Assembly (NCBI RefSeq): GCF_023278185.1
Contig: NZ_CP066356.1
Coordinates: 868,001-932,000, forward strand
Source: Bradyrhizobium elkanii USDA 76
GTDB lineage: Bacteria > Pseudomonadota > Alphaproteobacteria > Rhizobiales > Xanthobacteraceae
Length of the DNA: 64,000 nt
Direction of reading: 5' to 3'
In this document: in pieces, positions 30,071-63,254 of the stretch
How the letters are laid out: each line of letters opens with the position of its first letter
Numbering within the stretch: position 1 is the first letter of the stretch
The notes under the pieces: generated by a model
The model's input: only the letters and a program-made list of their open reading frames with translations
Database searches by the model: none
Told to the model about the DNA's origin: nothing
Program-made: the position numbers and the translations under genes

Positions 30071-30191
30071 TTGCTTACTCGCCCGAGCCGGACGGACCGG
30101 GAGCTCCAGCCGCGGGCGCATATCGCGCTGTAGAATAAGAAATAAATGGCGCACCCGACACGATTCGAACATGTGACCTTTGCCTTCGGAG
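30071..30191 (-). repeat. tRNA-Arg(CCG) 3'-end repeat, copy 1 (att-like)
   Basis: Core 30147-30191 is, on the minus strand, the 3' part of a tRNA from the anticodon arm (CTCCGAAGGC) through the T-arm (GTTCGAATCGTGT) to GGGTGCGCCA. The ~77 nt beside it (TTGCTTACTCG ... ATATCGCGCTGTA) also recur at copies 2 and 3. One T-stem base differs from the other copies. Integrase 1 starts 180 nt further on. Confidence 0.88.
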
Positions 30192-30262
30192 CAAGATAAC
30201 GTGCCCATCCGAAGAATGCGATAGGGCACGCCACGCTACGCTATCCAGCTGAGACGACTGGA
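30192..30262 (-). other. Conserved integrase-side att block with hairpin and D-arm-like sequence
   Basis: Next to the core, a hairpin CGTGCCC...GGGCACG (30200-30230) is followed by CTATCCAGCTGA, the complement of a tRNA D-arm (TCAGCTGGATAG). The block recurs almost unchanged at 53701-53772, so it belongs to the element, probably as integrase or excisionase binding sites. Confidence 0.55.
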
Positions 30263-30371
30263 TATTCTCAACAACAGAAGCGACGTTCCTATCCGCGACT
30301 ACGCACTGACTTTCTCCCGCGTGCTTACGCACCGCTTACGCGAGAGACCGTGCCCGGAACAAAGGAACGTC

Positions 30372-31730
30372 ATGGTCAAGATCACCAAAAGGGTTGTCGA
30401 AGCAGCGGAAGCCCAAGAGAAGGATTACGTCATCTGGGACGATGAACTTTCCGGCTTCGGGGTCCGGGTGTTCAGTTCCGGCAAGCGCAGCTACGTCATT
30501 CAGTATCGAATAGGAGGTCGCTCACGTCGCTACACAATTGGGCTTCACGGAGCCTGGACGCTGGAGACTGCACGCCGAGAGGCAAAGGTGCAACTCGGCC
30601 GGGTTGCTGGGGGCGATGATCCCGCCGAAGATCGCCGGCTTGATCACAAGGCGATTACCGTGAAGGAGCTGTGTGGCCGATACTTTGCCGATCTGCAGGC
30701 CGGCCTCATCCTCGGGAAAGGCGGGCGACCGAAGAAGGCCTCTACGATCGTCACCGACACGGGCCGTATCCATCGGCACATCATTCCGCTCATAGGGACC
30801 CGGCGGGTGAAGGATCTTACCAAGTCCGATATCAACAAGGTCCTCAAGGACATCATGGCCGGAAAAACGCGCGTTTCGGTCAAGACCAAGAAGCTGCGCG
30901 GAAAGGCCATCGTCCGAGGCGGCGCTGGAACGGCCACGCGCACCGTTGGTCTCCTTGGCGGCATTCTCACCTACGCCGTCGAAGCCGGCATCATTGAGAG
31001 CAACTCGGCGCATGGTGTCCGCAAGCCAAAGGACAATGTGCGAAAGCGTCGGCTCTCGGAGGCGGAGTACCGAATATTGGGTCGGATGCTCCGCGATGCC
31101 GCCAAGCAGGAGAAATACAGCACCATCGTGGACATCGTTCGCCAGCTTGCGCTGACCGGCTGCCGGCGCAGCGAAATGATTGGCTTGAAATGGGCGGAGG
31201 CCGACACCGAGGCGAGCTGCTTGCGGTTGGAGGACAGCAAGGAGGGTGATTCCATCCGTCCCATCGGGTTGCCTGTCGTCGAATATCTCGAGCGGCGGCG
31301 CACCGACCAAGTTGGCACGTACGTCTTTCCGGGGCAGGGGGGCGACAACGCGTTTGGCAGCTTCCCGAACCATTGGAAGCACATCTTCGAAGACTCCCCG
31401 CTTTCCGATGTTACTCCCCACGTCCTCCGTCACAGCTTCGCGAGCATCGCCAACGACCTTGGCTTCACCGAAGTAACCATCGCGGCGCTCATGGGCCATG
31501 CCAAGGGTTCGGTGACGAGCAAATACATCCATACGCTCGACACAGCGCTCATCATGGCTGCGGACACCATCTCCAGCTACATTCAGGGGCTTCTTGACGG
31601 CATTGAGTTCAAGCAAACCGCCTATGCGCTGGATCGCGACTCACGAAAAGCCGCGCTGGCCCGCTTCCTGAAGAGGGCTTCAGCTGGTCAGCAGGACGCC
31701 ATCGAAGAAAAGTTTAACCTGGCTGCCTAG
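30372..31730 (+). CDS. Tyrosine recombinase/integrase (P4-type), intact
   Basis: 452 residues. An N-terminal arm-binding domain of the DUF4102/P4-integrase type (GFGVRVFSSGKRSYVIQYRI), a SAM-like core-binding domain (~100-200) and a C-terminal catalytic domain with the first Arg in LTGCRRSEMIGLKW (about 265), HVLRHSFAS (H-x-x-R, about 350), GHAKGS and the nucleophile in SKYIHTLD (about Tyr384). It should integrate and excise the element at the tRNA-Arg 3' end. ATG 30372 follows AAAGGA; the frame is open 17 codons upstream but unconserved. Close paralogue of the broken copy at 53881. Confidence 0.95.
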   Translation: MVKITKRVVEAAEAQEKDYVIWDDELSGFGVRVFSSGKRSYVIQYRIGGRSRRYTIGLHGAWTLETARREAKVQLGRVAGGDDPAEDRRLDHKAITVKELCGRYFADLQAGLILGKGGRPKKASTIVTDTGRIHRHIIPLIGTRRVKDLTKSDINKVLKDIMAGKTRVSVKTKKLRGKAIVRGGAGTATRTVGLLGGILTYAVEAGIIESNSAHGVRKPKDNVRKRRLSEAEYRILGRMLRDAAKQEKYSTIVDIVRQLALTGCRRSEMIGLKWAEADTEASCLRLEDSKEGDSIRPIGLPVVEYLERRRTDQVGTYVFPGQGGDNAFGSFPNHWKHIFEDSPLSDVTPHVLRHSFASIANDLGFTEVTIAALMGHAKGSVTSKYIHTLDTALIMAADTISSYIQGLLDGIEFKQTAYALDRDSRKAALARFLKRASAGQQDAIEEKFNLAA

Positions 31731-31826
31731 GTGAGGTGTTGTGCCAAACGTCTTATCGAACTTCAATCACGCAACGATGGAGTTCATCGTCAACTGACGG
31801 TAAGAGCCAACAGCCGGGCTCGCAGG

Positions 31827-31840
31827 TTGACGCAAATCAA
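31827..31840. promoter_or_regulatory. FixK/FNR box ahead of DUF302 - phosphorylase operon
   Basis: TTGACGCAAATCAA matches the TTGAY-N4-ATCAA consensus exactly and ends 65 nt before the DUF302 start. Expected to bind a FixK2/FNR-type activator under low oxygen. Confidence 0.8.
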
Positions 31841-31905
31841 TCCCGAACGCGAGATCGGATTTAATTGTTCGAGCTGACTTGGACCGCGCAATGGGAGTAA
31901 CAGAC

Positions 31906-32289
31906 ATGTCCTATTACTTCTCGAAATCCCTAAACGTTCCCCTTTCCGAGGCAGTGGAGAGGACAGTCGATGCACTGAAGTCACGCGGCTTCGGTATATT
32001 GACGAGGGTCGACGTTCAATCCGTGCTGAAGGACAAAATCGGGATCGACTTTCATCCTTACGTGATCCTCGGCGCCTGCAATCCAAAGATGGCCTATCAG
32101 GCGCTCCAGGCCGAAGACAAGATTGGAACGATGCTTCCATGCAACGTCATTGTTCAGGAAGTTGACGGCAAGACTGAAGTCGCTGCTGTGGACCCGGTCG
32201 CGTCAATGCAGGCGATTCAAAATCCAGCGCTTGAAGCCATCGCCGTCAAAGTTCGGGAGGACCTCAAGGCGGCCGTTCAGGCGACCTAA
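31906..32289 (+). CDS. DUF302 family protein
   Basis: 127 residues; [20 protein letters not shown], then [39 protein letters not shown] and [19 protein letters not shown] are the DUF302 landmarks. The family has a ferredoxin-like fold and no proven activity. ATG 31906 has GGGAG about 9 nt upstream; an earlier ATG at 31891 overlaps that site. A FixK box lies just ahead. First gene of the likely unit continuing with the phosphorylase, PRPP synthase and nuclease genes. Confidence 0.92.
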
Positions 32290-32330
32290 GTCCGGCTCGC
32301 GCGTTCGCCCTACCGGCAAGGGACATGATT

Positions 32331-32347
32331 TGGGTCAATATGACCCA
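32331..32347. promoter_or_regulatory. Perfect palindrome ahead of the phosphorylase gene
   Basis: TGGGTCAATATGACCCA: 7-nt arms around ATA. It lies in the 83-nt gap between the DUF302 stop and the preferred phosphorylase start, so it could be a second operator. It would be coding if translation began at 32325. Confidence 0.5.
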
Positions 32348-32372
32348 CGGCGGTACCGGTATCCTGCCGCAT

Positions 32373-33914
32373 ATGATCGAGATAAAGCCGACCCGCCACG
32401 AGCTTAAATCACGCCGGATCAATCTCGACACCGGGCGCGAAAACGTAGCCGTGATTTCGCGGCGCTCGACTGCCCTGCGCCCGGAAGTGTTTCGTGGCTT
32501 CAGCAGGGTCGAGTTGCGCAGCAACTCGAAAGTGTTGCTGGCGACCCTGCTGCTGACCGACGACGATAGCCTGGTGGGACCAAACGAGCTCGGGCTGGCG
32601 GAGCCTGCTTTCCACCGTTTTGCAGAACCGGTCGGCACTTATGTCTCGGTCACGCCCGCACCGTCCCCGGCGAGCCTGGACGCCGTGCGCGCAAAGATCC
32701 AGGGACGGACGCTTGGGGCTTCCGATATCGACGCAATCGTCGAAGACCTCACGCACTTTCGTTATTCGGACATGGAGATCGCCGCGTTCCTGGTCAGTTC
32801 GGCTGGCTTCATGACATCAGGAGAATTGCTTGCACTCACCAGGGCCATGTCCAAAGCCGGCACACAGCTCAAATGGAATGCGAACGTCATTGTCGACAAG
32901 CATTGCATCGGCGGTATTCCCGGCAATCGCACCTCCATGATCGTAGTGCCGATCGTGGCAGCGCATGGCCTGACCATCCCAAAGACCTCATCCCGCGCGA
33001 TCACTTCGCCTGCCGGAACGGCCGATACGATGGAGGTGCTGGCGCGAGTTGATCTCAGTGTGGAGGCGATGAAGGAGGTCGTTGCGGCTTGTAATGGCTG
33101 CCTCGTTTGGGGAGGTCACGTCAACCTGTCGCCGGCCGACGATATTCTGATCGGTGTCGAACGGCCGCTCTCGCTCGACGCTCATGAGCAAATGGTTGCC
33201 TCCATCCTGTCTAAGAAGCTCGCAGCAGGCTCGACCCATCTTCTCATCGATCTGCCGATTGGACCCAATGCAAAGCTCACCAGCGCGTCGGAAGCAATGC
33301 GGCTGCGCAAGCTGTTCGAGTTCGTCGGCGATCATTTCGGCATTGAAACGGAGGTAGTGACGACCGACGGCCGGCAGCCGATAGGGTGCGGCATAGGCCC
33401 GGCGCTTGAGGCCCAGGATGTCATGGCGGTGCTTGCCAACGAACCTCTCGCGCCGCGCGATCTGCTCGAAAAGTCGTTGAGGCTTGCTGCCCATCTTCTG
33501 GAACGTGACCCGGCGCTGCGGGGCGGCGCTGGCTACGCCCGCGCACGCGAACTGCTGGAAAGCGGTGCCGCACTTCGACAGATGCAGAAGATCATCGAAG
33601 CCCAGGGGCCCACGCCGTATCGAGCCGAAGTGGGCACCCTGACAGCCGACATTCCCGCGGCGGTCGATGGCGTTGTATCCACCATCGATTGCCTTCGCCT
33701 CAACCGGGTGGCGCGTACGGCTGGCGCGCCGCTGGACAAGGGGGCCGGAATCAAGCTGTTCAGGAAGATCGGCGACCGTGTCGATCAAGGCGAGCCACTT
33801 TACCGCGTTCACGCGTTTGAACCGTCCCAGTTTGAGCTTGCGGTCGCCATGGCTCAGAACGACCCCGGCTATTTGATCGACGGTCACGACTCGCCTGGCG
33901 GGGTCAGAGCATGA
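32373..33914 (+). CDS. Thymidine phosphorylase family protein (AMP-phosphorylase-like)
   Basis: 513 residues, longer than classical DeoA and matching the TypeII/archaeal AMP-phosphorylase-like branch: an N-terminal ~85-residue extension ([20 protein letters not shown]), then the phosphorylase core with [20 protein letters not shown] (phosphate-binding), [19 protein letters not shown], and a C-terminal hammerhead domain ([20 protein letters not shown]). It cleaves a nucleoside or nucleotide with phosphate to base plus sugar phosphate; AMP-phosphorylases yield ribose-1,5-bisphosphate. I prefer ATG 32373 because the family N-terminus begins there and a palindrome lies before it; ATG 32325 is the alternative. 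Its stop overlaps the PRPP synthase start (ATGA). Confidence 0.9.
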
Positions 33915-34831
33915 CCTGCGCCGCGATCCAGTGGATGCCGACCTCCGTCGCCATTGGCCGACAGCTCGCCGAGCGGCTTGGCGTCCCCGGGCATGAGATT
34001 GTCTTGCACCGATTTCCCGACGGAGAGCTGCGCGTTACCGTCGGGCCGGCCGCACCGACGACCATCATTTGCTGTTCGCTCAATGATCCGAACGAGAAGC
34101 TGATTGCGCTGTTGTTCGCGGCGGAAGCATTACGGCGTGGAGGAGCCCGACGGCTGGTGCTGGTTGCGCCGTATCTCGGCTACATGCGTCAGGACGCTGC
34201 GTTCTACGCCGGCGAAGCCATCAGCCAGCGCGCCATTGGTGATCTCTTCGCGAAGACCGTCGACCGTGTGATTACCGTGGAAGCGCATCTGCACCGCACC
34301 GCGACCTTGAACCACGTATTTCCCGGAATTGAGACCGACAATCTCACCGCGGCCTCGGTGATCGAATCGATGCTTCGCGCTGATACGCTAGACCCCACCA
34401 CTCTCGTCGTCGGTCCCGACACAGAATCCCGGCCCTGGGTGAGCGATCTCGCCGGCCGGCTCGGGCTGGCCTTTGCCGTGGGCGAAAAGATCCGTCGCGG
34501 CGATCGTTCTGTGCAGATCGTCTTCTCCGATCCCGCACCGCTTCTGCAGCGTCCAGTGGTCCTCGTTGACGATATCGTCTCCTCGGGCGGCACGCTCATC
34601 GGCTGCGCTGAGGCGCTTGCATCATCCGGCGTCAGCTCAATCGATGCCGTGGTGATTCACGCGCTGTTCCCGCCGGAGCTGTTGAACGAGTTCAATCGCG
34701 CCGGCATCCGCTCGTTACGGTCCACCAACAGCGTGCCCCATCCGACCAACGCCATCGCCATGGATCACATTCTCGCCGACGCATTGCGGCGAGAGGTGGT
34801 CGGCACATCGATCGCGGAGAATAGAGTGTGA
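33911..34831 (+). CDS. Ribose-phosphate pyrophosphokinase paralogue
   Basis: 306 residues. The fold and sites of PRPP synthase are clear: [31 protein letters not shown] (ATP/ribose-phosphate region), [11 protein letters not shown] and the PRPP-binding loop [14 protein letters not shown] (about residues 216-229). The family His motif is VDLH in housekeeping enzymes but VEAH here, and the catalytic flexible loop reads [10 protein letters not shown]. It is therefore a diverged, archaeal-like paralogue rather than the housekeeping Prs. It overlaps the phosphorylase (4 nt) and the nuclease gene (GTGA), so all three are translationally coupled. Confidence 0.9.
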
Positions 34832-36423
34832 GCATCACCGTCCAGTTTTGCGGCGCAGCCCGCACCGTCACCGGTTCCTGCTACCTTTTCGACACGCCCA
34901 CAGGGCGCCTCCTGGTCGATTGCGGCCTGTTTCAGGGGCCGAAAACGCTGAAGGGATTGAACTACGCCCCGTTTCCATTTCCTGCGGAGGAGATCGGCGC
35001 AGTGTTGCTGACGCACGCGCATATCGACCACAGCGGCCTATTGCCAAAGCTCAGACGCGAGGGCTTTTCGGGCCCCATTATGGCAACACGCGGCACGATC
35101 GACCTGTGTTCCTACATGCTTCCCGATGCGGGAAACATACAAGAGGCGGAGGTGGCCGCGCTAAATCGGAGAAATACCGCTCGCGGTCGTGATGAGGTCA
35201 AGCCCATTTACACACAGGCCGACGCAATTGCCACGCTCGATGCCTTTCGGCCGGTCGAATACCGGACATGGTTCGAAGCGATGCCAGGCGTCCGCGCCCG
35301 TTACTGGAACGCCGGCCACCTGCTTGGCTCTGCCTCGATCGAGATTGAATTTGCCGGCCAGGGTGCGGGCGGAATGCCGTTGCGCGTACTCGCATCCGGC
35401 GATCTCGGACCGGACGCCAAGTTACTGGAGCCGGACCCGGAGGCTCCGGCCGGTTTCGACTATGTCATTTCAGAGTCCACCTATGGCGACGGTGACCGCC
35501 CAGCGACAACCGCTTCACTCAGGCGCGCACACCTGGCACAGGAGGTGCGCGACGCCGCGGCCGCCAAGGGCGCGTTGCTTATTCCGGCCTTTGCCGTTGA
35601 GCGAACGCAAGAGCTGATCGTCGACCTTGTCTACCTGATGGAACGGGGAGAGATACCGACCGCGCCGATCTTTCTCGACTCTCCACTGGCGATCCGCGCG
35701 ACTGAGGTGTTCCGCAAACACGCGGCCAGTTTCGACGCGGAGGTCGACGTCGATCGGCTCCTGGCTTCGCCGCAATTGCGATTCACCGAGACCGTCGACG
35801 AGAGCAAATCGATAGCCAGGCTATCCGGCTTTCACATCATCATCGCGGCTAGCGGGATGTGCGAGGCCGGTCGCATCCGGCATCATTTGAAGCGCTGGCT
35901 GTGGCGGCGTGAAGCTACCGTGCTGCTGGTCGGCTTCCAGGCGCAGGGTACGCTTGGACGATTCCTGCACGATGGCGCCAAGGCCGTCCGGATACAGGGC
36001 GACGAAGTCAAGGTCGCTGCGCGAATAAGGTATCTCGATGAATATTCCGGCCATGCCGACGGCCCCGAACTGGCTCGCTGGATTGCCTCGCGGCGACCGA
36101 TTCATCGTGGCGTGTTCATCACCCACGGCGAGGAGCCCGCACTCAAAGGTCTTGTCGAACGAATAGCCGAGCGAACAATCCCGACGGCAAGCATCTTCAA
36201 TCCGGTACTCGATGACATTTATGAGCTTTCCACGGCCGCACCGACGCCTCTCGACGTCGTGCGCCGGCGCCGGCTGGCTCCCGATGCCGTCGTCAATCTC
36301 GACTGGCACAACGATATGTCCAGGCTACTTCTCGATATCAACGAGCAGATCGAGGCAGCGGCGGACGACCGGGCGCGTGGCGTGATCATACGGAGATTGC
36401 GAAGAGCTCTCGAACAGGTGTGA
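34828..36423 (+). CDS. Metallo-beta-lactamase/beta-CASP nuclease
   Basis: 531 residues. The metal site H-x-H-x-D-H is in LLTHAHIDHSGLLPKL (about 63-68), with NAGHLLGSASIEIE and SGDLGPD supplying further ligands. Beta-CASP motifs: ESTYGD (A), SGHADGPELARW (B) and FITHGEEPA (C). Such CPSF/RNase J-like enzymes cut RNA as endo- or 5'-exonucleases; the exact activity is unknown. GTG start at 34828 overlaps the preceding stop. Cytoplasmic. Position in one operon with nucleotide phosphorylase and PRPP synthase suggests RNA-derived nucleotide salvage. Confidence 0.92.
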   Translation: MSITVQFCGAARTVTGSCYLFDTPTGRLLVDCGLFQGPKTLKGLNYAPFPFPAEEIGAVLLTHAHIDHSGLLPKLRREGFSGPIMATRGTIDLCSYMLPDAGNIQEAEVAALNRRNTARGRDEVKPIYTQADAIATLDAFRPVEYRTWFEAMPGVRARYWNAGHLLGSASIEIEFAGQGAGGMPLRVLASGDLGPDAKLLEPDPEAPAGFDYVISESTYGDGDRPATTASLRRAHLAQEVRDAAAAKGALLIPAFAVERTQELIVDLVYLMERGEIPTAPIFLDSPLAIRATEVFRKHAASFDAEVDVDRLLASPQLRFTETVDESKSIARLSGFHIIIAASGMCEAGRIRHHLKRWLWRREATVLLVGFQAQGTLGRFLHDGAKAVRIQGDEVKVAARIRYLDEYSGHADGPELARWIASRRPIHRGVFITHGEEPALKGLVERIAERTIPTASIFNPVLDDIYELSTAAPTPLDVVRRRRLAPDAVVNLDWHNDMSRLLLDINEQIEAAADDRARGVIIRRLRRALEQV

Positions 36424-36546
36424 AGCGCGCACCTGCAAACACATGTCGGCTGAGATCCATGCCCCTCTACGCGATCGTCACTTTGACGCCCGCGATACCT
36501 GCTCTGGCCACCATGCCGGTCGACCCAATGGCCACCTGACAAATAG

Positions 36547-36560
36547 CTGACATAGATCAA
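36547..36560. promoter_or_regulatory. FixK/FNR-like box ahead of the RND operon
   Basis: CTGACATAGATCAA differs from TTGAC-N4-ATCAA by one base and lies 106 nt before the adaptor start. A similar but weaker sequence (CTGACACACATGAA, near 42007) precedes the TPR gene. Confidence 0.5.
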
Positions 36561-36666
36561 CAGCCTCCCGTAAGCCGGAGAGTAGTATGTCTCCGCCCTG
36601 CCGGTGCAGTGCGTGCTGAGTCTCCGCTTCGCGGAGGCCTTGCGCGCTGGCTGCGTGGAGAGACTA

Positions 36667-37803
36667 ATGACAGAATCTTGTCGCATGGGCCCGCGTTTGA
36701 CGTCGTGGTCGAGCCGAGCTCGAATCATACTCGCATTGGCGTTAATCGGCCTGCCGTCCTTCGCGATGGCCGAGGACGCCATAAAGCTCACCCCCGAACA
36801 GGCAACGAGTCTCGGTGTTCGCGTCGTTCATCCGGTTGCGAGCCCGACCGACAAGACGCTGCCCTATCCCGCGCAGATCGTGATTCCCACACCGCAATTG
36901 TGGGTCGTGAGTAGTCCTGTAGCCGGCATGGTGACCGGCCTTTCAGTCGCGCGAGGAGACCGGGTGAGCGCGGGCCAACCGCTCGTTGTCATGGAGAGCC
37001 CAAGTTTCGTGTCGCAGCAACGCGATTACATGCAGGCAGTCGCGCAGGACATTCTGGCCACCCAGCAACTCAACCGGAACACCCAGCTTTTCCAGACAAA
37101 TGCTGTCGCACAACGAGTTCTTGAGGCCAGCCAGACCGAAGCCCGGCAGGCCAGCATTCTGCTAGCGGAGCGGCGGCAGATGCTGCGGCTCAGTGGCCTC
37201 TCGGATGATGCAATCTCGAAGCTGACCAGCGAGGCCGCGATCAACGCAACCCTTTCGGTCTTCGCACCGCGGGCGGCGACTGTCGTCGATATAGTCGTCT
37301 CGCCCGGCCAACGGGTGGAGCAAACGGCTTCGCTTATCAAGCTCGCGCAGCTGTCTCCGCTATGGATCGAGATCGCCGTTCCGGCATCGAACATCCGCGC
37401 CATCAGACCGGGCGCGAAGGTCGAGGTTGAGGGTTATACAGTGCCCGGCCAGGTCGTGCTGATCTCGGAAACTGCCGATGCCGCGACCCAGACCATCCTT
37501 GTCCGCGCGGAAGTCCCCAATACGGGCGAGCTGCGGCCCGGGCAGACAGCCCAGGCGCGGATAGGTTTTGCTTCCTCGACTGAAAGCGCCTGGGAGCTTC
37601 CCTATAGCGCGCTGATCCGGCGTGGCGAGCAGGCTACTGTGTTCGTGGCGATACCCGGCGGTTTTCGTTTGGTCGCGGTGAAGCTCCTTGAGGAGGACCA
37701 GGACCACGTCGTGGTCTCCGGCCCGATCACCGACAAGGACGAGGTCGCCGCCGGCGGCATCTCCGCGTTGCGTGGAATCCTGCTTAAGCTCGGAGCCGGT
37801 TAG
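36667..37803 (+). CDS. RND efflux periplasmic adaptor (CusB/CzcB-like)
   Basis: 378 residues. A Sec-type signal (RIILALALIGLPSFAMA) is followed by a barrel-sandwich hybrid (VVSSPVAGMVTGLSVARGDR-VSAGQPLVVM), an alpha-helical hairpin (DILATQQLNRNTQLFQTNAV), a second lipoyl half (VDIVVSPGQRVEQ) and beta-barrel/membrane-proximal domains. It links the inner-membrane RND pump to an outer-membrane channel in metal efflux. The operon has no outer-membrane factor gene, so a channel must come from elsewhere. The ATG at 36667 has GGAGAG ahead. The permease gene starts 2 nt after its stop. Confidence 0.9.
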   Translation: MTESCRMGPRLTSWSSRARIILALALIGLPSFAMAEDAIKLTPEQATSLGVRVVHPVASPTDKTLPYPAQIVIPTPQLWVVSSPVAGMVTGLSVARGDRVSAGQPLVVMESPSFVSQQRDYMQAVAQDILATQQLNRNTQLFQTNAVAQRVLEASQTEARQASILLAERRQMLRLSGLSDDAISKLTSEAAINATLSVFAPRAATVVDIVVSPGQRVEQTASLIKLAQLSPLWIEIAVPASNIRAIRPGAKVEVEGYTVPGQVVLISETADAATQTILVRAEVPNTGELRPGQTAQARIGFASSTESAWELPYSALIRRGEQATVFVAIPGGFRLVAVKLLEEDQDHVVVSGPITDKDEVAAGGISALRGILLKLGAG

Positions 37804-53435: not shown

Positions 53436-53577
53436 CTCGATCGCGTTCGCTCAGCAGGCCTTAAGCTCGGGGTGGCAAGGGCAAGCCCGGCCTGACTCAT
53501 GAGGCCTGGACGCCGAACAAGATCTCGGGGGTAGCGAACCGCGCGTTCCGCCTTGCGACGAGACCATTTTTTCAGGG

Positions 53578-53700
53578 TTGCTTACTCGTGCCAATCAGAC
53601 CGAGCCGGGAGTTTCGGTTAGGGCGTGCACATCGCTCTGTAAAATAAAGAAAAAGTGGCGCACCCGACACGATTCGAACGTGTGACCTTTGCCTTCGGAG
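53578..53700 (-). repeat. tRNA-Arg(CCG) 3'-end repeat, copy 2 (att junction)
   Basis: Core 53656-53700 equals copy 1 except one T-stem base. The ~77-nt flank is shared with copies 1 and 3, and the integrase-side block (53701-53772) with copy 1. It is therefore both the right end of element A and the left end of element B. Confidence 0.9.
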
Positions 53701-53880
53701 CAAGATAACGTGCCCATCCGAAAAATGCGATAGGGCACGCAACGCTACGCTATCCAGCTGAAGCAACTGGATATTCTGACACACACAAGCGACGTTCCTA
53801 TCCGAAAACACGCATCGATCTTCTCCCGCCTGCTTACGTATCGCTTACGCGAGGGAGGGTGCCCGGAACGAAGGAATGTC

Positions 53881-55238
53881 ATGGTCAAGATCACGAAGAG
53901 GGTTGTCGAGGCGGCGGAGGCCCAAGAAAAGGACTACCTGATCTGGGACGACGAGCTGCCCGGCTTCGGACTGCGGGTCTTTAGTTCAGGCAAGCGCAGC
54001 TACTTATCCAGTATCGAATAGGTGGTCGCTCACGTCGATACACAATTGGACTTCATGGAGCCTGGGCGCCCGAGACTGCACGCCGAGAAGCAAAGGTGCA
54101 GCTCGGTCGGGTCGCTGGGGGTGACGACCCCGTCGAGGATCGACAGCTCGATCACAAGGCGATCACCGTGAAGGAGCTATGCGCCCGCTATTTCGCTGAT
54201 CTCCAGGCCGGTCTCATCCTGGGGAAGGGCGGACGACCGAAGAAGGCCTCAACGATCATCACCGATACGGGTCGTATCGAGCGTCACATCATTCCCCTCA
54301 TAGGAACCCGGCGGGTCAAGGATCTCACCAAGACCGACATCAACAAAGTCCTCAAGGACATCATGGCCGGAAAGACGCGGGTCTCGGTCAAGACCAAGAA
54401 GCTGCGGGGAAAGGCCATCGTCCGAGGCGGCGCCGGAACGGCCACTCGCACCGTTGGTCTTCTCGGGGGCGTCCTCACCTACGCCGTCGAGGCCGGTATC
54501 ATCGAAAGCAACCCGTCGCACGGCATCCGCAAGCCAAAGGACAACGTGAGAAAGCGACGGCTGTCGGAGGCGGAATATCGAATATTGGGTCGGATGCTTC
54601 GCGACGCCGCTACGCAGGAGAAATACACCACGATCGTAGACATTGTTCGTCAAATTGCGCTGACCGGCTGCCGGCGTAGCGAGATGATCGGGTTGAAATG
54701 GGCGGAAGCTGACACTGAGTCGAGTTGCTTGCGGTTGGAGGACAGCAAGGAGGGAGAATCCATTCGTCCCATCGGCCTGCCTGTCGTCGAATATCTCGAG
54801 CGACGGCGCACGAACAGTGTCGGCACATACGTATTTCCCGGGAACGGCGAAGACAACGCGTTCGGTAGCTTTCCGAACCATTGGAAGCATCTCTTCGAGG
54901 ACTCTGCGCTGTCCGATATTACTCCTCACGTCCTGCGCCACAGCTTCGCGAGCATCGCCAACGATCTCGGCTTCACCGAGGTGACCATCGCGGCGCTGGT
55001 CGGTCATGCCAAAGGTTCAGTAACGAGTAAATACATCCATACACTTGACACAGCGCTCATCATGGCTGCGGACACGATCGCTGGCTACATTCAAGGGCTC
55101 CTTGATGGCATAGAGTTCAAGCAGACTGCCTACGCGTTGGACAGGGATTCGCGAAAAGCCGCGCTGGCCCGCTTCCTACAGCGGGCTTCCAACGGCGACC
55201 ACGAAGGCGGCGAAGAAGAACGCCGCTTGGCGGCCTAG
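53881..55238 (+). pseudogene. Tyrosine recombinase/integrase, frameshifted
   Basis: Aligns with integrase 1 along its whole length. After SSGKRSY (codon ~41), one base is missing compared with copy 1 (copy 1 reads TACGTCATTCAG, copy 2 TACTTATCCAG), so translation stops at TAG 54019-54021 after 46 codons. The remainder is open again and keeps all catalytic residues (GCRRSEMIGLKW, HVLRHSFAS, SKYIHTLD), with a possible internal start at 54096 that would lack the arm-binding domain. Its end overlaps the convergent AraC gene by 4 nt. Confidence 0.85.
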
Positions 55239-56266
55239 TCCGGTCTTCCATCACTCGCGGTTGGCAACTTCTTGTATAATTGGCGGTCATCTTGGCAGGC
55301 AGTCGTCACCGCCTCCCGTCGAGCATTCCTGCGTAACACCTCTGGGGGCACACCGAAGGTCCGGAGGAACGCCCGCCGCATGCGCTCGCGGTCAGCAAAA
55401 CCCACTTCCTCCGCCACGACATTAACCGTGTGCCGCCCTTCCTCCATCATGAACCTGGCCGTTTCCAGCCGAAGCCGCTCCACTGCTTTTGCCGGTGATT
55501 GGCCTGTCTCGGCCAGAAAGGCGCGGCTGAACTGGCGAGGACTGAGGTTGGCGACCGCCGCAAGGTTCTCGATTGTGAGCGGATTCCGCAGATTTTGGCG
55601 GATGTACGCCACGACCAACTGGATGCGATCGGATTTCGGTGTCATGTCGAGGAGCGCGGAATGCTGCGTTTGTCCGCCCATCCGACGTTGATTGATGACC
55701 ATAAGTTTGGCAGCAACCTTCGCAACTTCGGAACCCAAGTCCCTATCGATCATCGCTAGAACAAGATCGATTCCTGCGGTCATTCCAGCTGACGTCCAGA
55801 TCGGACCGTCATTGATATAGATCCGATCCTCCTCCATCCTGACATCGGGAAACCGAGCCCTGAAACTTGTCGCTTGAATCCAATGCGTCGTCGCACGGCG
55901 ACCATCGAGAAGTCCGGCTTCGGCGAGAACAAACGCGCCATTGCAAAATGAAGCAGTGCGCCTTGATACCTTGGCAGCTTCTTGCACAAAGGCGATCAGG
56001 TTTGCGCTCGATGGAGCCATTTCGAACGCGGTGACCGCGCCGACAATAATTGTATCAAAAGCCGGATCGCCGAATGCTTCGGTGTCAACGGTCAAACCAC
56101 AGGAAGATCGAACGGGACCGCCGTGCTCCGACAACAGATGGAGGTCATAGTGGGAATCGGTCGGAGGCGGCTTCGCAAGCCCGAATCCCGTCATTTCGAA
56201 TGCCGTCATGGGCGCAAGACTCAAGAGCTGGAAGTCGTGCGGGACAATGAGACCTACCCGATGCAT
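55235..56266 (-). CDS. DJ-1/PfpI - AraC family regulator 1
   Basis: 343 residues. N-terminal DJ-1/PfpI (class I glutamine amidotransferase-like) domain with the nucleophile-elbow Cys108 in SFCNGAFVLAEAGLL and TSAGMTAGIDLVLAMI; C-terminal AraC DNA-binding domain (two HTH: LAAVANLSPRQFSRAFLAET, VAEEVGFADRERMRRAF). Regulators of this GlxA/FtrA type usually sense a small metabolite. TAGGAGCAGCC precedes the ATG. Closely related to the protein at 56437-57393 but with a longer, unconserved C-terminus. Confidence 0.93.
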   Translation of the reverse strand: MHRVGLIVPHDFQLLSLAPMTAFEMTGFGLAKPPPTDSHYDLHLLSEHGGPVRSSCGLTVDTEAFGDPAFDTIIVGAVTAFEMAPSSANLIAFVQEAAKVSRRTASFCNGAFVLAEAGLLDGRRATTHWIQATSFRARFPDVRMEEDRIYINDGPIWTSAGMTAGIDLVLAMIDRDLGSEVAKVAAKLMVINQRRMGGQTQHSALLDMTPKSDRIQLVVAYIRQNLRNPLTIENLAAVANLSPRQFSRAFLAETGQSPAKAVERLRLETARFMMEEGRHTVNVVAEEVGFADRERMRRAFLRTFGVPPEVLRRNARREAVTTACQDDRQLYKKLPTASDGRPD

Positions 56267-56436
56267 GGCTGCTCCTACTGTCCGAAATGTGGATGATAGT
56301 CCAGACGAATATCATCCAAGAGGCATGCTCTGATGTCGAACCCGGATGCTCACGCACGAGCCAGATGGCCGAAAGCGCCGTTCGGCACCGCATTGAGAGC
56401 TAGACTCAAAAGCCTGTATTTCTTGACAGCCCGAAG

Positions 56437-57393
56437 TCAGGCAGCCGCTTCCGCCTCCCGTCGAGCGTTCCGGCGTAATATCTCCGGTGGCACACCGAAG
56501 GTCCGGAGGAACGCGCGACGCATGCGTTCGCGGTCCACGAATCCTGTTTCCTGCGCCACAACATTGACCGTGTGCCGCCCCTCTTCGATCATGAACCTGG
56601 CGGCCTCCAGCCGAAGCCGCTCCACGGCTTTTGCTGGAGACTGGCCGGTTTCGGCCAGAAAGGCGCGGCTGAACTGGCGGGGGCTCAGGTTGGCGACCGC
56701 CGCAAGCTCTTCGATCGTCAATGGGTTCCGCAAATTTTGACGGATGTGCGCCAGCACCAATTCGATGCGATCGGACTTCGGCGTCATATCAAGGAGTGCG
56801 GAATGCTGCTTTTGTCCCCCCATCCGACGTTGGTTCATGACCAGAAGTCTGGCGACCATTTTCGCGACTTCGGGACCAAGATCATTATCGATCAACGCCA
56901 GAACGAGGTCGATCCCCGCAGTCATTCCCGCGGACGTCCAGACCGGACCGTCATTGATGAAGATCCGGTCCTCCTCCGCCCTGACATTCGGAAACCGGGC
57001 CCTGAAGCTAGCGGCATGGGCCCAGTGCATCGTCGCGCGTCGACCACTCAGAAGGCCCGCTTCAGCCAGTACAAACGCTCCGCTGCAGATCGAGGCGACC
57101 CGCCTCGACGCCTTGGCGGCTGCCTGTACGAACGCGATCGTCGTCGCGTCGGAGGAAGGCATGTCCATCTCGGTGATCGAACCCACGATGACTGTATCGA
57201 AGGCAGGATCTCCGAACGGTTCGGTTTGCAGCGTCATGCCTGAGGAAGATCGAACCGGACCGCCATGCTCCGAAAGCAAATGGATGTCGTAGCGCTGGTC
57301 GGCGGGAGGCAGATTGACGATTTCAAATGCGGTCAGGGCCGCAAGGCTCATCAACTGAAACCGTTGCGGCACGATGAAACCGACCCGATGCAT
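56437..57393 (-). CDS. DJ-1/PfpI - AraC family regulator 2
   Basis: 318 residues, same architecture: DJ-1/PfpI domain with Cys103 in SICSGAFVLAEAGLLSG and TSAGMTAGIDLVLALI, then an AraC domain (LAAVANLSPRQFSRAFLAET, VAQETGFVDRERMRRAF). AGGAGCG precedes the ATG. It is divergent from the hydrolase operon at 57539, with a 145-nt gap likely holding its operators, so it is the better candidate for control of that operon. Tandem paralogue of the gene at 55235. Confidence 0.93.
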   Translation of the reverse strand: MHRVGFIVPQRFQLMSLAALTAFEIVNLPPADQRYDIHLLSEHGGPVRSSSGMTLQTEPFGDPAFDTVIVGSITEMDMPSSDATTIAFVQAAAKASRRVASICSGAFVLAEAGLLSGRRATMHWAHAASFRARFPNVRAEEDRIFINDGPVWTSAGMTAGIDLVLALIDNDLGPEVAKMVARLLVMNQRRMGGQKQHSALLDMTPKSDRIELVLAHIRQNLRNPLTIEELAAVANLSPRQFSRAFLAETGQSPAKAVERLRLEAARFMIEEGRHTVNVVAQETGFVDRERMRRAFLRTFGVPPEILRRNARREAEAAA

Positions 57394-57538
57394 TTTCGCT
57401 CCTGTGGCACGAATGGTGGCAAGAACGACCTACGTCGGCCCCGCCGTAATCGCTAGAGTCCAGGCAACAAATCTCGCACTGGCTCCTCGCCGCTAAGCGA
57501 CCCCCATCAGCGCTTCCGTGAGGAAGAAAGAATGATGC

Positions 57539-58411
57539 ATGTCTTCTGATCACGCCGCCTTCGTCGAGCATCGCATTTCTAGGGGCGAAGGAAAAGTCTA
57601 CGCTCGAGATTATGCGGGTTCTGGTCCGGCCTTTGTGCTGATGCACGGCTTCCCTGACAACCTGCATATCTGGGATGACCTGATCCCGTTCCTGGTTGCC
57701 AGCGGCCGGCGCGTGGTGACGTTCGATTTCCTGGGCTTCGGCGCCTCGGACAAGCCCGCTGGCGCTACCTATAGCTTTAAGCAGCAACTGGGCGACCTTG
57801 AAGCGGTCGTCGAGGGGCTGGGCCTGGGAAAGATCGTTCCGGTGGCTCACGATTCCTCCGGGATGGCGACGCTCAACTACGCGCTCGCCCATCCGGGAGG
57901 CGTCGACTCCGCGATCATGCTCAACTCGGCCTATAGCGAGGACTCCACGGTTCTTTGGCCCGAGATGATCACGCTCTTTGCGACTCGGAGCATGCAGGCC
58001 CTTTCAATAGCGATCGCCCAGAGCCCCGAACAGTTTGGCTGGCTGCTGAAATGGCAGCAGAAGAAATTCCTGGACCCCTTGCCTGAGGCGCAAAGACCCC
58101 ATTTCAGCGCGTTCATCGGTCCGCTGATCAGCGACAACTTCATCGCCCAACCCGGCGCCGGTCCGGCCTTCGTGCAGTTGGCGGCGGAATTCTTCGATGA
58201 ACACGCCCGAAACGCCAAGCATCTGACCGCGCTCAAGACGCTAGATATTCCGGTCAAGCTGATCTGGGGACAATACGACCCCTACTTCCCCGTCGCCATG
58301 GCCGAGCGGCGTCAATCTCAGCTCAAAAATGCCTCTCTCGCCGTCATACCGGCGGGCCATTGGCTGCAGGCCGATGAGCCCGCGCAAGTCGCGAAGGCGA
58401 TGCTGTCATGA
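57539..58411 (+). CDS. Alpha/beta hydrolase with Asp nucleophile (haloalkane-dehalogenase-like)
   Basis: 290 residues. The oxyanion-hole motif is LMHGFPDNLHIWDDLI; the nucleophile elbow reads VAHDSSGMA, with Asp105 where most family members have Ser. That arrangement is seen in haloalkane dehalogenases and epoxide hydrolases, though the usual Trp after the Asp is Ser here. The acid is near WGQYDPYFP and the catalytic His in PAGHWLQAD. Expected to split C-halogen or epoxide bonds; the substrate is unknown. First gene of a six- or seven-gene run; overlaps the next gene by 4 nt. Confidence 0.88.
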   Translation: MSSDHAAFVEHRISRGEGKVYARDYAGSGPAFVLMHGFPDNLHIWDDLIPFLVASGRRVVTFDFLGFGASDKPAGATYSFKQQLGDLEAVVEGLGLGKIVPVAHDSSGMATLNYALAHPGGVDSAIMLNSAYSEDSTVLWPEMITLFATRSMQALSIAIAQSPEQFGWLLKWQQKKFLDPLPEAQRPHFSAFIGPLISDNFIAQPGAGPAFVQLAAEFFDEHARNAKHLTALKTLDIPVKLIWGQYDPYFPVAMAERRQSQLKNASLAVIPAGHWLQADEPAQVAKAMLS

Positions 58412-58878
58412 GTCCCCGCGTTCTCGATAGGCTCACCGTTCGCGTGGGCCGCTTGGCCAAGCTCGCCCGCGCCATTGGCCTCACCGCGGTACTGGCGGCG
58501 ATCAACCCGACCGCTTCGCTCGCTCAATCGGCGATGCCGGCCGCTCCGCCGCCATCATCGAGCCTCGACGTCCCTACGACCAAACTGCTGGCGATCGGCA
58601 CATTTACAGTCAAGGGGACGCCGGAGCGATGGAAGCCGCTCCTGGATGCTGAAGTGCGCGACACGGTGCGCCTCTATCTCACTGGGAAAATTGACCAGTG
58701 GTACCTCAAGCAGGACCAGAGCGGGGTCGTTTTCGTCATGAGCGTCACAGATCCGAAGGAGGCTCTGGAACTGCTAGGCAGGTTTCCTTTCGGCCAGGCG
58801 GGGCTGATGGAATTCCAGATCATCCCACTTGGCCCAATCGCTCCGCTTCGCGTGCTTTTGACCGATCCCGCGAAGTAG
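58408..58878 (+). CDS. Exported muconolactone-isomerase-like protein
   Basis: 156 residues. The N-terminal ~45 residues look like a Sec or Tat-like leader (ARAIGLTAVLAAINPTASLA, then Q). The rest (TKLLAIGTFTVKGTPERWKP, VVFVMSVTDPKEALELLGRF, LMEFQIIPLGPIAPLRVLL) is a ferredoxin-like domain of the muconolactone-isomerase/YciI type, and is related to the next two proteins. Catalytic activity is unproven. Overlaps the hydrolase gene by 4 nt. Confidence 0.75.
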   Translation: MSPRVLDRLTVRVGRLAKLARAIGLTAVLAAINPTASLAQSAMPAAPPPSSSLDVPTTKLLAIGTFTVKGTPERWKPLLDAEVRDTVRLYLTGKIDQWYLKQDQSGVVFVMSVTDPKEALELLGRFPFGQAGLMEFQIIPLGPIAPLRVLLTDPAK

Positions 58879-59362
58879 TTCGCGACGGCCTCACACCAAT
58901 CCAACGACAAGGAAACATCGATGTCTGAGAACAAGAATCCGCGCGTCCATGCTGAGATACTTCCCGCACTTGCCGCCGTTGTTGGTCCGACAACCAAGAT
59001 CCTGGCTATCGGCTCGGTTACGGCCAAGGGAACACCCGAGGCGATCGCTCCCGTCCTGCCTCACGAAGTCCGCGCGACGGTTCGCAACCATCTCGCCGGC
59101 AAGATCGAGCAGTGGTTCTTCCAGACCGAGGGCTACGGCGTCGTCTTCATCGTGAACGCCACCAGCACCGCAGAGGCGCACGAACTCCTGGAGAAACTTC
59201 CACTTGGCGTAGCCGGCATGATGGAATTCGAATTGATCGCTCTCGGGCCGCTCGCGCCTCTCGCCATGCTAATCGGCGAACCTCCGCGTTCGTAATGCGA
59301 CCCGCGGGCCTCGACTGTGAGTTTGGTCGCGCTCCAGGCTCTATCGGACCGCCTTCGTAGTT
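58834..59362 (+). repeat. Tandem duplication, unit 1
   Basis: Extends from the last ~45 nt of the gene at 58408 through the gene at 58921 to about 70 nt beyond it. Unit 2 repeats it with an offset of about 538 nt. Confidence 0.75.
58921..59295 (+). CDS. Muconolactone-isomerase-like protein (copy 1)
   Basis: 124 residues without signal peptide: NPRVHAEILPALAAVVGPTT, VTAKGTPEAIAPVLPHEVRA, VVFIVNATSTAEAHELLEKL, MMEFELIALGPLAPLAMLIG. The ferredoxin-like fold of muconolactone isomerases is probable; key catalytic residues cannot be judged. Almost identical to the protein at 59459, from a tandem duplication. The genes lie in the same strand and spacing as the upstream hydrolase operon. Cytoplasmic. 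Confidence 0.8.
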   Translation: MSENKNPRVHAEILPALAAVVGPTTKILAIGSVTAKGTPEAIAPVLPHEVRATVRNHLAGKIEQWFFQTEGYGVVFIVNATSTAEAHELLEKLPLGVAGMMEFELIALGPLAPLAMLIGEPPRS

Positions 59363-59372
59363 TCGTAACCGC

Positions 59373-59900
59373 CCGATCGCACCGCTTCGGGTGCTTTTGA
59401 GGGATACGGCAAAGTAATTCTCGGCCCCGACACCGATGCGGCGAGAGAAAATAGCAAAATGCCTGAAGTCAAGAACCCGCGCGTCCATGCCGAGATATTG
59501 CCCGCGCTCGCCGCCGTTGTCGCTCCGACAACCAAGATCCTGGCGATCGGCTCGGTCACGGCGAAGGGCACACCCGAGGCGATCGCCTCGGTCAGTCCCC
59601 ACGAGGTTCGCGCCACGGTTCGCAATCATCTCGCTGGAAAAATCGAGCAGTGGTTCTCCCAGACGGAGGGCCGCGGCGTTGTCTTCATCGTGAACGCCAC
59701 CAGCACGGCAGAGGCGCACGAACTCCTGGAGAAGCTTCCACTCGGCGTCGCCGGAATGATGGAATTCGAGCTGATCGCTCTCGGGCCGCTTGCGCCGCTC
59801 GCCGTGCTCATCGGCGAACCTCCGCGTTCGCAATGCGATCCGCGGACCTCGTTGTGAGCTTGGTAGCACTCCAGGCTCCATCGCCAACCGATCGAGGTCG
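59373..59900 (+). repeat. Tandem duplication, unit 2
   Basis: Repeats unit 1: CACCGCTTCGGGTGCTTTTG corresponds to CTCCGCTTCGCGTGCTTTTG at 58840, followed by the whole next gene and AATGCGATCCGCGG (unit 1: AATGCGACCCGCGG). Confidence 0.75.
59459..59857 (+). CDS. Muconolactone-isomerase-like protein (copy 2)
   Basis: 132 residues; differs from copy 1 at few positions (e.g. APTTKI for GPTTKI, ASVSPHEV for APVLPHEV, QTEGRGVV for QTEGYGVV) and has an eight-residue longer end because of a shifted stop. Both reading frames remain intact, so both copies probably make protein. No ribosome site as strong as that of copy 1 is evident (AGAGAAAATAGCAAA before the ATG). Confidence 0.78.
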   Translation: MPEVKNPRVHAEILPALAAVVAPTTKILAIGSVTAKGTPEAIASVSPHEVRATVRNHLAGKIEQWFSQTEGRGVVFIVNATSTAEAHELLEKLPLGVAGMMEFELIALGPLAPLAVLIGEPPRSQCDPRTSL

Positions 59901-59974
59901 ACCGGGCATGGTGAAGCCACGCCGCGGCGGACCAAAGATTACGTCAACAACCCGCCAAAAAGGATCCCGCCACG

Positions 59975-60985
59975 ATGCCTGTTATCAAAGCCGCGGCCGT
60001 GCAGATCAGTCCCGTTCTCTACAGCCGGGAAGGCACTGTTGGCAAAGTGGTCAAGAAAATTATCGAGCTTGGGCGCCAAGGCGTCCAGTTCGCGACCTTC
60101 CCGGAAACGGTCATTCCCTACTACCCGTATTTTTCCTTCGTCGAAGCGCCCTACCTGATGGGCGCGGAGCACTACAAGTTACTTGATCAGGCGGTAACCG
60201 TGCCGTCTGACGTGACCAGGGCCATCGGCGAGGCCGCCAAGCAAGCTGGCATGGTCGTCTCCATCGGCGTCAACGAGCGCGATGGTGGCACGATCTATAA
60301 CGCGCAAATTCTGTTCGATGCCGACGGCATGCTCATCCAGCACCGTCGCAAGATTTCCCCGACCTATCATGAACGCATGGTCTGGGGGCAGGGCGATGGC
60401 TCCGGGCTGCGATGTGTGGACAGCGCTGTGGGACGCATCGGTCAACTGGCGTGCTGGGAGCACTACAACCCACTCGCCCGCTACGCCTTGATGGCCGACG
60501 GCGAACAGATTCACTCAGCTATGTATCCCGGCTCGTTCGCCGGAGACGGCTTCTCCGAGCAGATCTCAGTCAATATCCGCCAGCACGCTCTGGAGGCCGG
60601 ATGTTTCGTGGTCTGTGCGACAGCCTGGCTGGATGCCGAGCAGCAAGCCCGGATCATGACGGACACCGGCAGCAGAATCGAGCCAATCTCCAGCGGCTGC
60701 TTTACCGCAATCGTTTCTCCAGAAGGCGAGCTAATGGGCGCGCCGCTGAGATCCCGCGAAGGCGAGGTCATTGCCGATCTCGATTTCTGGGCCATCGACA
60801 AGCGCAAGCGTTTGATGGACTCGCGCGGTCACTACAGTCGCCCGGAACTGCTCAGCCTCCTGATCGATCGCACGCCAAAGTCCCATGTGCTTGAGCGCAA
60901 CGCGCATCCAGCGCTGGAATTCCTCGACTCGGGCGAACCGCTGGAAGAAGTCGGCTCGCGTCCGGTAATGGCAGCAATCTCATGA
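59975..60985 (+). CDS. Nitrilase (aliphatic/aromatic nitrilase-type)
   Basis: 336 residues, the length of true nitrilases. Catalytic triad: Glu44 in [12 protein letters not shown], Lys126 in [12 protein letters not shown] and Cys160 in [14 protein letters not shown]. The Cys motif CWEHY is the nitrilase-branch version. It hydrolyses R-CN to the acid and ammonia; some make the amide. Cytoplasmic, forms helical oligomers. The ATG follows the MIase-like genes by 117 nt and its stop overlaps the next gene (ATGA). Confidence 0.95.
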
Positions 60986-61941
60986 CCTCACGCCGGCATC
61001 TGCTTCTCACTGGCGGCGCTTTCGTCGCCGCGCTCGGCCTCCCGAAAGCGGGGCTTGCAGACGCGACGGAGGTCGCCAGACCGCCAGCCCACCAACCCGC
61101 TCACAAAGGATCAAAGCTCATGACGACCGCGACAATGAAAGACGGCGCGAAGATCTACTTCAAAGACTGGGGCGCCGGTCCGGTCGTGACCTTCTCTCAC
61201 GGATGGCCGCTCACCGCAGACGCCTGGGACGCCCAGATGCTGTTCCTGGCGAACCACGGCTACCGCGTTATCGCGCATGATCGACGCAGCCATGGCCGGT
61301 CGGATCAGACCTGGACCGGCAACGACATGGATACTTATGCCGACGATCTCGCCACCCTGCTTGAGACGCTCGACGTCAAGGGTGCGACGATGATCGGCCA
61401 TTCGACCGGTGGCGGCGAGGTCGCGCGTTACGTTGGCCGCCACGGCACATCGCGCGTGTCGAAAGCAGTCCTGATTTCCGCGGTGCCTCCGCACATGGCG
61501 CAGACGCCGACGAACCCCAACAGTGCGCCGATGAGCGTGTTCGATGGTCTGCGCTCGAGCCTGGTTGCCGATCGGGCGGGGTTCTTCAAAGAACTGGCGA
61601 TGCCGTTCTTTGGCTACAACCGTCCCAATGCGAAGGTTTCGCAGGGCCAGATCGACTCCTTCTGGCTTCAGGGCATGATGGGGAGCCTCCAAGGAGAGTA
61701 TGATTGTATCAAGGCCTTCTCCGAGACCGATTTCACGGATGATCTCAGGAAGATGACGATCCCAACCCTGCTGCTGCAGGGTAATGACGATCAGGTCGTT
61801 CCAATCGACATCGCCTCCCGGCGTTCGGTGAAGATCCTGCCAAACGCGAACTTGAAGGAATATGCAGGTGCTCCACATGGCATGTGCGTCACCCACGCCG
61901 ATCAAGTGAACGCAGACCTGCTGGCCTTCCTCAAAGGATGA
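60982..61941 (+). CDS. Haloperoxidase-like alpha/beta hydrolase with export leader
   Basis: 319 residues. It resembles the core-genome hydrolase at 4384 from residue ~47 onward ([37 protein letters not shown] with Ser141, [15 protein letters not shown] with His299) but carries an N-terminal leader [20 protein letters not shown]. The RR followed by a hydrophobic stretch resembles a Tat signal without a complete S/T-RRxFLK. Hence periplasmic export is likely. Overlaps the nitrilase gene by 4 nt. Activity: ester hydrolysis/peracid formation, substrate unknown. Confidence 0.9.
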
Positions 61942-62029
61942 CGGGGGACGAAATCCTCCTGCCCGATCGACCAGCGGCAAAGCGGATACGTCGTGCGGCA
62001 AAGCATATTCATTCTGAGTGAGGCGAAAA

Positions 62030-62967
62030 ATGAGCAAGGCACAACGCGAACTTCCGATTCTCGTGACCGGCGCGGCTGGACGGATCGGCTCGGTGGGTCG
62101 CACCGTGACGGAGCTGCTTCTCGCCCGTGGATTCCAGGTACGGGCGCAGGTTCGTGTGGACGACGAGCGGGCCGCAAGGTTGCGTGCGCTCGGTGCAGAA
62201 GTCGTGGTTGGCGATCTGCTCGATCTTATGGCGGTACATCGGGCGATCGAAGGGTGCGAACGTCTCTGCTTCGCAATGTCGGTCGCGCCGACCTATCTCG
62301 AAGCGGCTGTCAACGTCGCCGTCGTCGCGAAGCACCACGGCGTAAAGGCGTTCGTCAATCTCTCCCAGATGACCGTCAACGAGATGGACATCTTCAATAC
62401 GACCCCCAGCCCACAGCAAAAGCAGCATTGGTTGGCGGAGCAGATATTATCCTGGTCCGGGCTGCCAGTGGTGGAAGTACGACCAACGGCCTTCATGGAA
62501 GGGTTGTTGCTTCAAACGGCGAAAACCGTCTCCTTGCAGGACAAAATCATGGCCCCCTTTGGAATGGGCAAGAACTCTCCATCGCTGCAGCCGATGTCGC
62601 TCGGGTGATCGCCGAGATACTGAGTGAGCCCGCCGAGCATATCGGCCAGACCTACCATCTGACCGGCCCGGTTTCGCAGGACATGGACGCGGTTGCACGC
62701 GAGTTCTCGGCCGCGCTTGGTCGCACGATCTCGTATGTCAACGTTCCACTTGAGGTCATGAAGGGGCAACTCGCCGCCTTCGGAATGCCGCAGCATGTCG
62801 TTGCGCACGTGGCGACCATGGCGGGGCTACATCAGGACAACCGGTACGATCGGTTCAGCAACGATGTCGAAAGGCTGACCGGCATACGTCCGATGAGCGT
62901 TCGGGAATTCGTGCAGAAGAACGCGCATACGTTCGCACCGGTCGCGCCTTCGAGCGCGGCTGAATAA
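62030..62967 (+). pseudogene. NmrA/NAD(P)-binding oxidoreductase gene, frameshifted
   Basis: From ATG 62030 the frame reads ELPILVTGAAGRIGSVGRTV (NAD(P)-binding GxxGxxG-type motif) to APFGMGKNSPSLQPMSLG and stops at 62608. In another frame the gene continues SIAAADVARVIAEILSEPAE-HIGQTYHLTGPVS to 62967. Joining at about 62580 (one base missing in a C-run, giving KNSP|IAAADVARV) yields a ~312-residue NmrA-like protein such as azoreductase/NAD(P)-binding regulators. Either a true pseudogene or a sequencing error. Confidence 0.8.
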
Positions 62968-63000
62968 ACGCATCGTAGACACGGGTTCGCAAAGGAGCGT

Positions 63001-63020
63001 GGTTGCGGGCACACGCAACC
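63001..63020 (+). terminator. Possible terminator of element B operon
   Basis: Arms GGTTGCG (63001-63007) and CGCAACC (63014-63020) with a 6-nt loop, 34 nt past the end of the NmrA-type gene. Confidence 0.45.
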
Positions 63021-63132
63021 ACCGATACCGACATTCACTTCAAGTCACGATCTGACCAAGATGGCCCCTCGGGGGAGTTCCTCGCGTCCCGAACGCGATG
63101 TATCTGCAATCGACAATCACTTTTTCAGCGAT

Positions 63133-63254
63133 TTGCTTACTCGTTCGAATGAGACGGAATCGTAATTTCGGTTCAGACGCGCATATCGCGCTGTAAAACA
63201 AAGAAAATCTGGCGCACCCGACACGATTCGAACGTGTGACCTTTGCCTTCGGAG
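63133..63254 (-). repeat. tRNA-Arg(CCG) 3'-end repeat, copy 3 (right att-like)
   Basis: Core 63210-63254 is identical to that of copy 2; the flank TTGCTTACTCG...ATATCGCGCTGTA is shared too. After the core, GGCA continues the expected tRNA anticodon stem (GGAGGGCA) where copies 1 and 2 have element sequence, so this copy keeps a few more bases of the original tRNA before diverging. Confidence 0.88.

Follow-up and report, generated by a model that had tools for sequence, protein, structure and literature searches.

A tandem array of tRNA-Arg(CCG)-type elements inside a tRNA-Phe island of Bradyrhizobium elkanii and the spare attachment cassette it may occupy

Cis-mobilizable elements (CIMEs) are bounded by att sites and lack an integrase. 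Other islands target tRNA genes and encode P4-type tyrosine integrases, and such elements may be nested or accreted. In the portion of the published account available to us, CGI48, in tRNA-Trp of Shewanella, is a case of tandem accretion and a composite island (PMC8978831). Polypartite symbiosis ICEs are known from Bradyrhizobium and Mesorhizobium, according to the available parts of the two relevant papers (PMC9174649, PMC9239051).

Here, we analyze two neighboring elements, A and B, in a stretch of 64,000 nucleotides (hereafter the window), which corresponds to C1:868001-932000 of a two-contig genome of 9.5 Mb. Like the tRNA-targeting islands with P4-type integrases, the array has a tyrosine recombinase with intact domains (IntA) adjoining a duplicated tRNA 3' end, direct repeats of this 3' end at the ends of the elements, and five invariant integrase residues. 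Unlike them, it is not located at the cognate tRNA gene: it lies at 898-931 kb of C1, about 600 kb from tRNA-Arg(CCG) (C1:295299), and the 5' half of the tRNA is missing at its third copy. The array also resembles composite islands such as CGI48, as far as these are described in the excerpts of the source, in being an island within an island with att sites shared by elements: A and B share direct att sites inside another element, and a relative is free of the array. It differs from them in its entry point, which here would be a recurring cassette of tRNA origin (X-core-Y, see below) inside the host island. With polypartite symbiosis ICEs, in so far as the same partial texts present them, it has in common the att sites of one tRNA lying far from that tRNA and several integrase systems per genome, but the scanned ORFs of A and B include no symbiosis or conjugation family and there is no sign of separate parts joining. 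In that comparison, separated att sites were the sole feature of such ICEs that was seen. This is mostly known biology at an unusual address: composite islands are already known, and dispersed spare att sites would be a modest novelty, in which the target of a tRNA integrase is separated from the tRNA gene itself.

Anatomy of the array

The left 9.9 kb of the window are chromosome-like DNA (66% GC, with hisD at 6004-7299), and the GC content to the right of them is 59-61%. The array has the following parts.

30049..30146, + strand: X arm 1 (the "outer flank")
30147..30191, + strand (tRNA sense on the minus strand): core 1, tRNA-Arg(CCG) 3' end with 1 mismatch
30192..30320, + strand: integrase-side block of element A
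30321..31730, + strand: integrase A, intact P4-like tyrosine recombinase of 469 aa
31731..53435: cargo of element A (thymidine phosphorylase family, PRPP synthase, beta-CASP nuclease, CusA/CzcA-type RND efflux, P-type ATPase, Usp, two-component system, VIT1)
53565..53655, + strand: X arm 2, right end of A
53656..53700, + strand: core 2
53830..55238, + strand: integrase B, frame-broken near residues 57-60
55235..62967: cargo of element B (two AraC/DJ-1 regulators, alpha/beta hydrolases, AIRS_C-like protein, nitrilase, NmrA-like protein)
63111..63209, + strand: X arm 3, right end of B
63210..63254, + strand: core 3
63255..63436, + strand: Y, right half of the putative spare att cassette, common to G030 and partly to G042 and G053, without the tRNA-Arg 5' half

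As the initial annotation had proposed, the three 45-nt cores (at 30147, 53656, and 63210) are all direct and correspond, on the minus strand, to the 3'-terminal 45 nt of tRNA-Arg(CCG). The first 24 nt of the core, with at most 2 mismatches, occur four times in the genome, versus none for a reversed-pattern control. The ~77-nt outer flank that had been described as the same at each copy is indeed present at all three, but it is similar rather than identical: those of the other two copies match copy 2 at 80% and 90% over 89 nt including the core. Copies 1 and 2 are 86% identical over 1613 nt spanning X, core, integrase-side block, and integrase, in agreement with the earlier view that each is followed by the same block and a P4-type integrase gene, the second of which is frame-broken. 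Copy 3 runs into a different sequence, Y, instead of the integrase-side block. Neither this recognizable Y nor the tRNA-Phe repeat that encloses the array (see below) had been noticed before. Since the three cores are direct and the first two face P4-like integrases, they delimit two tandem elements, A of 23.5 kb and B of 9.6 kb.

IntA is a single frame of 469 aa with Arm-DNA-bind_3 and Phage_integrase domains. Its R282, H367, R370, H393, and Y402, which we take to be the catalytic residues, are among the positions invariant across 73 aligned integrases. In integrase B (IntB), residues 1-60 and 57-469 are in different frames and the protein is probably inactive; for IntA, all three cores are possible substrates in principle. 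The integrase relatives at the 89-91% level are from Bradyrhizobium.

Element A carries stress and efflux genes. Relatives of the first three (E up to 1e-100) occur in 65 of 146 genomes, at 93% in G120 and 70-76% elsewhere, and G120 has much of this cargo set with no Arg core within 39 kb. No relaxase or type IV secretion gene, the combination that defines an ICE, was named among the 30 (longer) ORFs of A and B that were scanned. Pfam matches of 48 ORFs of the window and 10 of its right flank, many of which matched no family, included no conjugation family. Nor are A and B CIMEs, A having an intact integrase and B a broken one. Element B contains two tandem duplications (58921-59220 / 59459-59758, 87%; 55296-56266 / 56438-57393, 77%).

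The integrase family and its attachment site

The initial annotation had named, as an outcome that would speak against it, a core that is a dispersed repeat unlinked to integrases. This is not what we found: 72 of 80 named relatives have a core (at most 12 mismatches) in the 700 nt upstream of the integrase, versus 0 of 71 control windows taken further upstream of the integrases. Three of the remaining eight loci are cut by contig ends and five have no core, among them the closest relative (L006, 91%), which yet keeps the integrase-side block. Many Arg cores in the genus stand alone, without an integrase. The T-stem within the core differs among loci, yet all its positions pair (G-U allowed) in 70 of the 72; CCTTCGGAG is nearly constant. 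We infer that the T-arm half of the core follows the host tRNA and that the A/B integrase would recombine the core between the X arm and the integrase-side arm, with the crossover probably at the anticodon end.

The polarity of the elements can be read in genomes where the tRNA gene is at hand. A complete tRNA-Arg stands beside the integrase in 3 of the 72 core-bearing loci. In G024, which has a single element of the A/B kind at tRNA-Arg, the core-integrase and X-core-tRNA junctions are 22.9 kb apart, which identifies X as the element's right arm. The X flank is not native, because most of the tRNA-Arg matches listed in the survey of 146 genomes begin at the core. Copies 2 and 3 thus mark where A and B end on the right, whereas the X arm of copy 1 has no such element body to its left. 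In G069, three direct cores end at the true tRNA-Arg, with an integrase match at the middle core only. A second, inverted Arg core is found in that genome about 75 nt from the tRNA-Arg gene (C2:3203797-3203993, L169), and similar inverted copies occur in L107 and L254.

No intact tRNA-Arg gene was found in the window, as had been stated from the outset. A single Arg(CCG) is present among the 48 distinct tRNAs recovered from the genome, and its gene holds an X-ended insert of its own, since synteny with G118 ends at about 280,814 and picks up again at the core. This insert (C1:280814-295298; L118, L119) is about 14.5 kb long and has X as its right arm; no left, second core was seen in it.

The enclosing tRNA-Phe island and the point of entry

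A tRNA-Phe repeat (9896-10062 versus 63554-63726, 83%) encloses the array, with the following parts.

9853..9928, + strand: tRNA-Phe(GAA), left edge of the enclosing repeat
9929..10062, + strand: P arm, a tRNA-Phe flank of element origin; in 60 genomes, most of the listed matches extend no further than 9928
24786..29868, no strand assigned: DNA of the tRNA-Phe element, matched in G048 by four blocks (87-91%) and followed there by the Phe end without the array
63483..63593, + strand: distal end of the tRNA-Phe element with a decayed tRNA-Phe 3' core (~63560-63593), common to G042 and G048
63594..63726, + strand: second P arm

tRNA-Phe is a hot spot whose downstream flanks vary widely: among 44 flanks (some entered twice), the largest cluster, of 10, is the P arm, which is present in seven other genomes among the loci compared. 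In the draft genome G048, tRNA-Phe is followed by DNA matching 24786-29868, then by 106 nt, and then by DNA matching 63491-63591, and the array is absent. The island DNA at 10.1-24.8 kb has no counterpart in this draft, whose six listed Arg cores all lie on contigs other than that of the tRNA-Phe element. Native chromosome to the right of the island was sought at tRNA-Phe in G004 (18.5 kb), G041 (6.4 kb), and G043 (19.7 kb) and was not found: past the tRNA, these gave no match of at least 100 nt to the chromosome of our strain up to 980 kb. Within the island, two inverted-repeat stretches about 9 kb apart (12112-12567 / 21248-21700) are 74-78% alike, and one of them overlaps an HSP20-like ORF.

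The X arm at copy 1 had led to the proposal of an additional, integrase-less element to its left. Yet the DNA up to 29868 is tRNA-Phe element DNA in G048, on a contig without an Arg core, so only about 180 nt (29869-30048) are left unexplained; these had no match among the sequences compared. A third element larger than this is not supported on the G048 evidence, and we regard its existence as very improbable. Hence some caution is warranted with such traces: a tRNA 3' fragment is no proof of an island at its tRNA, and the outer flank of a repeat is no proof of a further element.

Where, then, did A and B enter? When the flanks of the array are joined (30191|63255), they align across the joint with the uninterrupted X-core-Y of two other genomes, G042 (130 of 159 columns identical) and G030 (227 of 287). 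G053 has only core and Y in common with the window (100/122), beside tRNA-Val. Copy 3 had also been considered as a decayed tRNA-Arg 5' half, a candidate that was dropped because Y is common to these three genomes. The X-core-Y of G042 shares a contig with the tRNA-Phe island of that genome, precedes a Phe end by about 4.5 kb, and has no integrase match in the surrounding 20 kb. Its core has lost several nucleotides at the anticodon end, so it may be a scar instead of a usable target. Another Phe end of G042 is preceded, at a distance of about 240 nt, by a second Arg core, which has a different left arm; in G144, about 23 nt separate an X-core site from the decayed Phe end that follows it. In G042 (C65, L216), fragments of an integrase of the IntA/IntB family are found inside the tRNA-Phe island.

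From these comparisons of sequences, we consider it likely that the target of A and B was a spare X-core-Y att cassette, devoid of a tRNA gene, near the distal end of the tRNA-Phe island. Both would be integrative elements specific for tRNA-Arg(CCG). The cassette would already have been present before they arrived, and they would have entered it, and not the tRNA-Arg gene, by sequential site-specific integration, splitting it into X1-core-intA...X2-core-intB...X3-core-Y. The junctions would be the work of integrases, the events would have taken place in this order, and the elements could be mobile at present. The polarity in G024 and G069, the array-free G048, and the uninterrupted cassettes support the original idea of two elements accreted at one att site.

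Alternatively, A, B, and perhaps an older element could have been assembled by ordinary tandem accretion at tRNA-Arg or in a larger mobile island and then carried or rearranged en bloc into the tRNA-Phe island; Y would be the remnant of a neighboring integrase-less element. The three cores of G069 that end at the true tRNA-Arg are consistent with this, and so are four Arg cores that G030 has in series away from the tRNA, with Y-ended and int-ended stretches in alternation. We find such a transfer rather unlikely, as uninterrupted X-core-Y sites with the same Y exist without A or B in G042 and G030, and as the tRNA-Phe element of G048 lacks both the array and the cassette. The G030 series (C1:2236530-2494349) has stretches of about 49, 40, and 169 kb. 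Its Y...X stretches resemble CIMEs in having att ends and no match to the IntA family near the Y end, unlike element A with its intact integrase. Two cassette-like junctions in this region (2236530-2494305) resemble plain joints of neighboring elements. Hence, like these G030 junctions, the cassette that A and B would have entered could have originated as an old tandem joint and need not be a purpose-made site. We also considered Y as the integrase end of another element. This was rejected, because no match to a profile of 73 integrases was found beside the scanned X-core-Y junctions, with the exception of a weak, partial one 2.4 kb from the L262 junction (E 7e-4). The flanks of Y gave no junction-anchored matches to the 80 integrase loci.

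Spread of X-core sites

X-core matches (query start at 74 or less, reaching 136 or more) number at least 41, in at least 25 of the 146 genomes, our own included; these counts are lower bounds. Beyond the core, the 41 listed matches continue, as classified by eye, into Y-type sequence (25), tRNA-Arg (9, one cut by a contig end), the integrase block (6), or an unclassified sequence (1, G050 C267). On the Y side, the 3' end of another tRNA is found within 0.75 kb at five of the 25 listed X-core-Y sites, namely, Phe in the window and in G144 (both decayed), Met in G144, Leu in G070, and a Lys fragment in G062; the other 20 have none. One X-core-Y is on a 359-kb contig of G144, and core-integrase junctions are also present on a 457-kb contig of G069. 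Intact tRNAs lie within 750 nt in 4 of 48 Y contexts, versus 0.185 expected, in a biased sample chosen from search listings and for a class of genes that are island hot spots anyway. These contexts include a contig end (L105), the inverted copies beside tRNA-Arg (L169, L107, L254), and an integrase junction (L255). A reversed tRNA library gave 0 matches, versus 20 for the real one. The X-core-Y subset has 2 intact tRNAs in 25, versus 0.097 expected.

The sites near 3' ends of Phe, Leu, Met, Val, and Lys tRNAs could mean that what we see as cassettes belongs to polypartite, multi-integrase ICEs that integrated via another tRNA and left these attP sites unused, in the manner of bipartite and tripartite symbiosis ICEs. 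The portions of the literature at hand do place polypartite symbiosis ICEs in Bradyrhizobium, including a bipartite one at tRNA-Arg (PMC9174649, PMC9239051). We hold this to be quite improbable: the ORFs of the window and its right flank, many lacking a Pfam match, gave no conjugation family, the ~1.5-2 kb to the right of the scanned X-core-Y junctions contain no match to the IntA family, and an integrated polypartite ICE should have all its att sites split.

More tentatively, it is possible that Bradyrhizobium genomes carry dispersed, spare, tRNA-less X-core-Y landing pads, in islands at other tRNAs and on smaller replicons, where tRNA-Arg elements would pile up while sparing the tRNA gene and travel with the carrier island. 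The parts of the literature on composite islands and polypartite ICEs that we consulted contain no description of such cassettes, which does not prove its absence. Should the cassettes be live targets, other islands, and not one tRNA gene, would determine how many landing sites the IntA family has, and islands could recruit more elements without risk to the tRNA. A different arrangement is seen at L199, L201, L203, and L024, which have a complete tRNA-Arg(CCG) with a variant 3' half and TGCTTACG-type repeats on the 5' side, as if these were elements carrying a whole tRNA gene.
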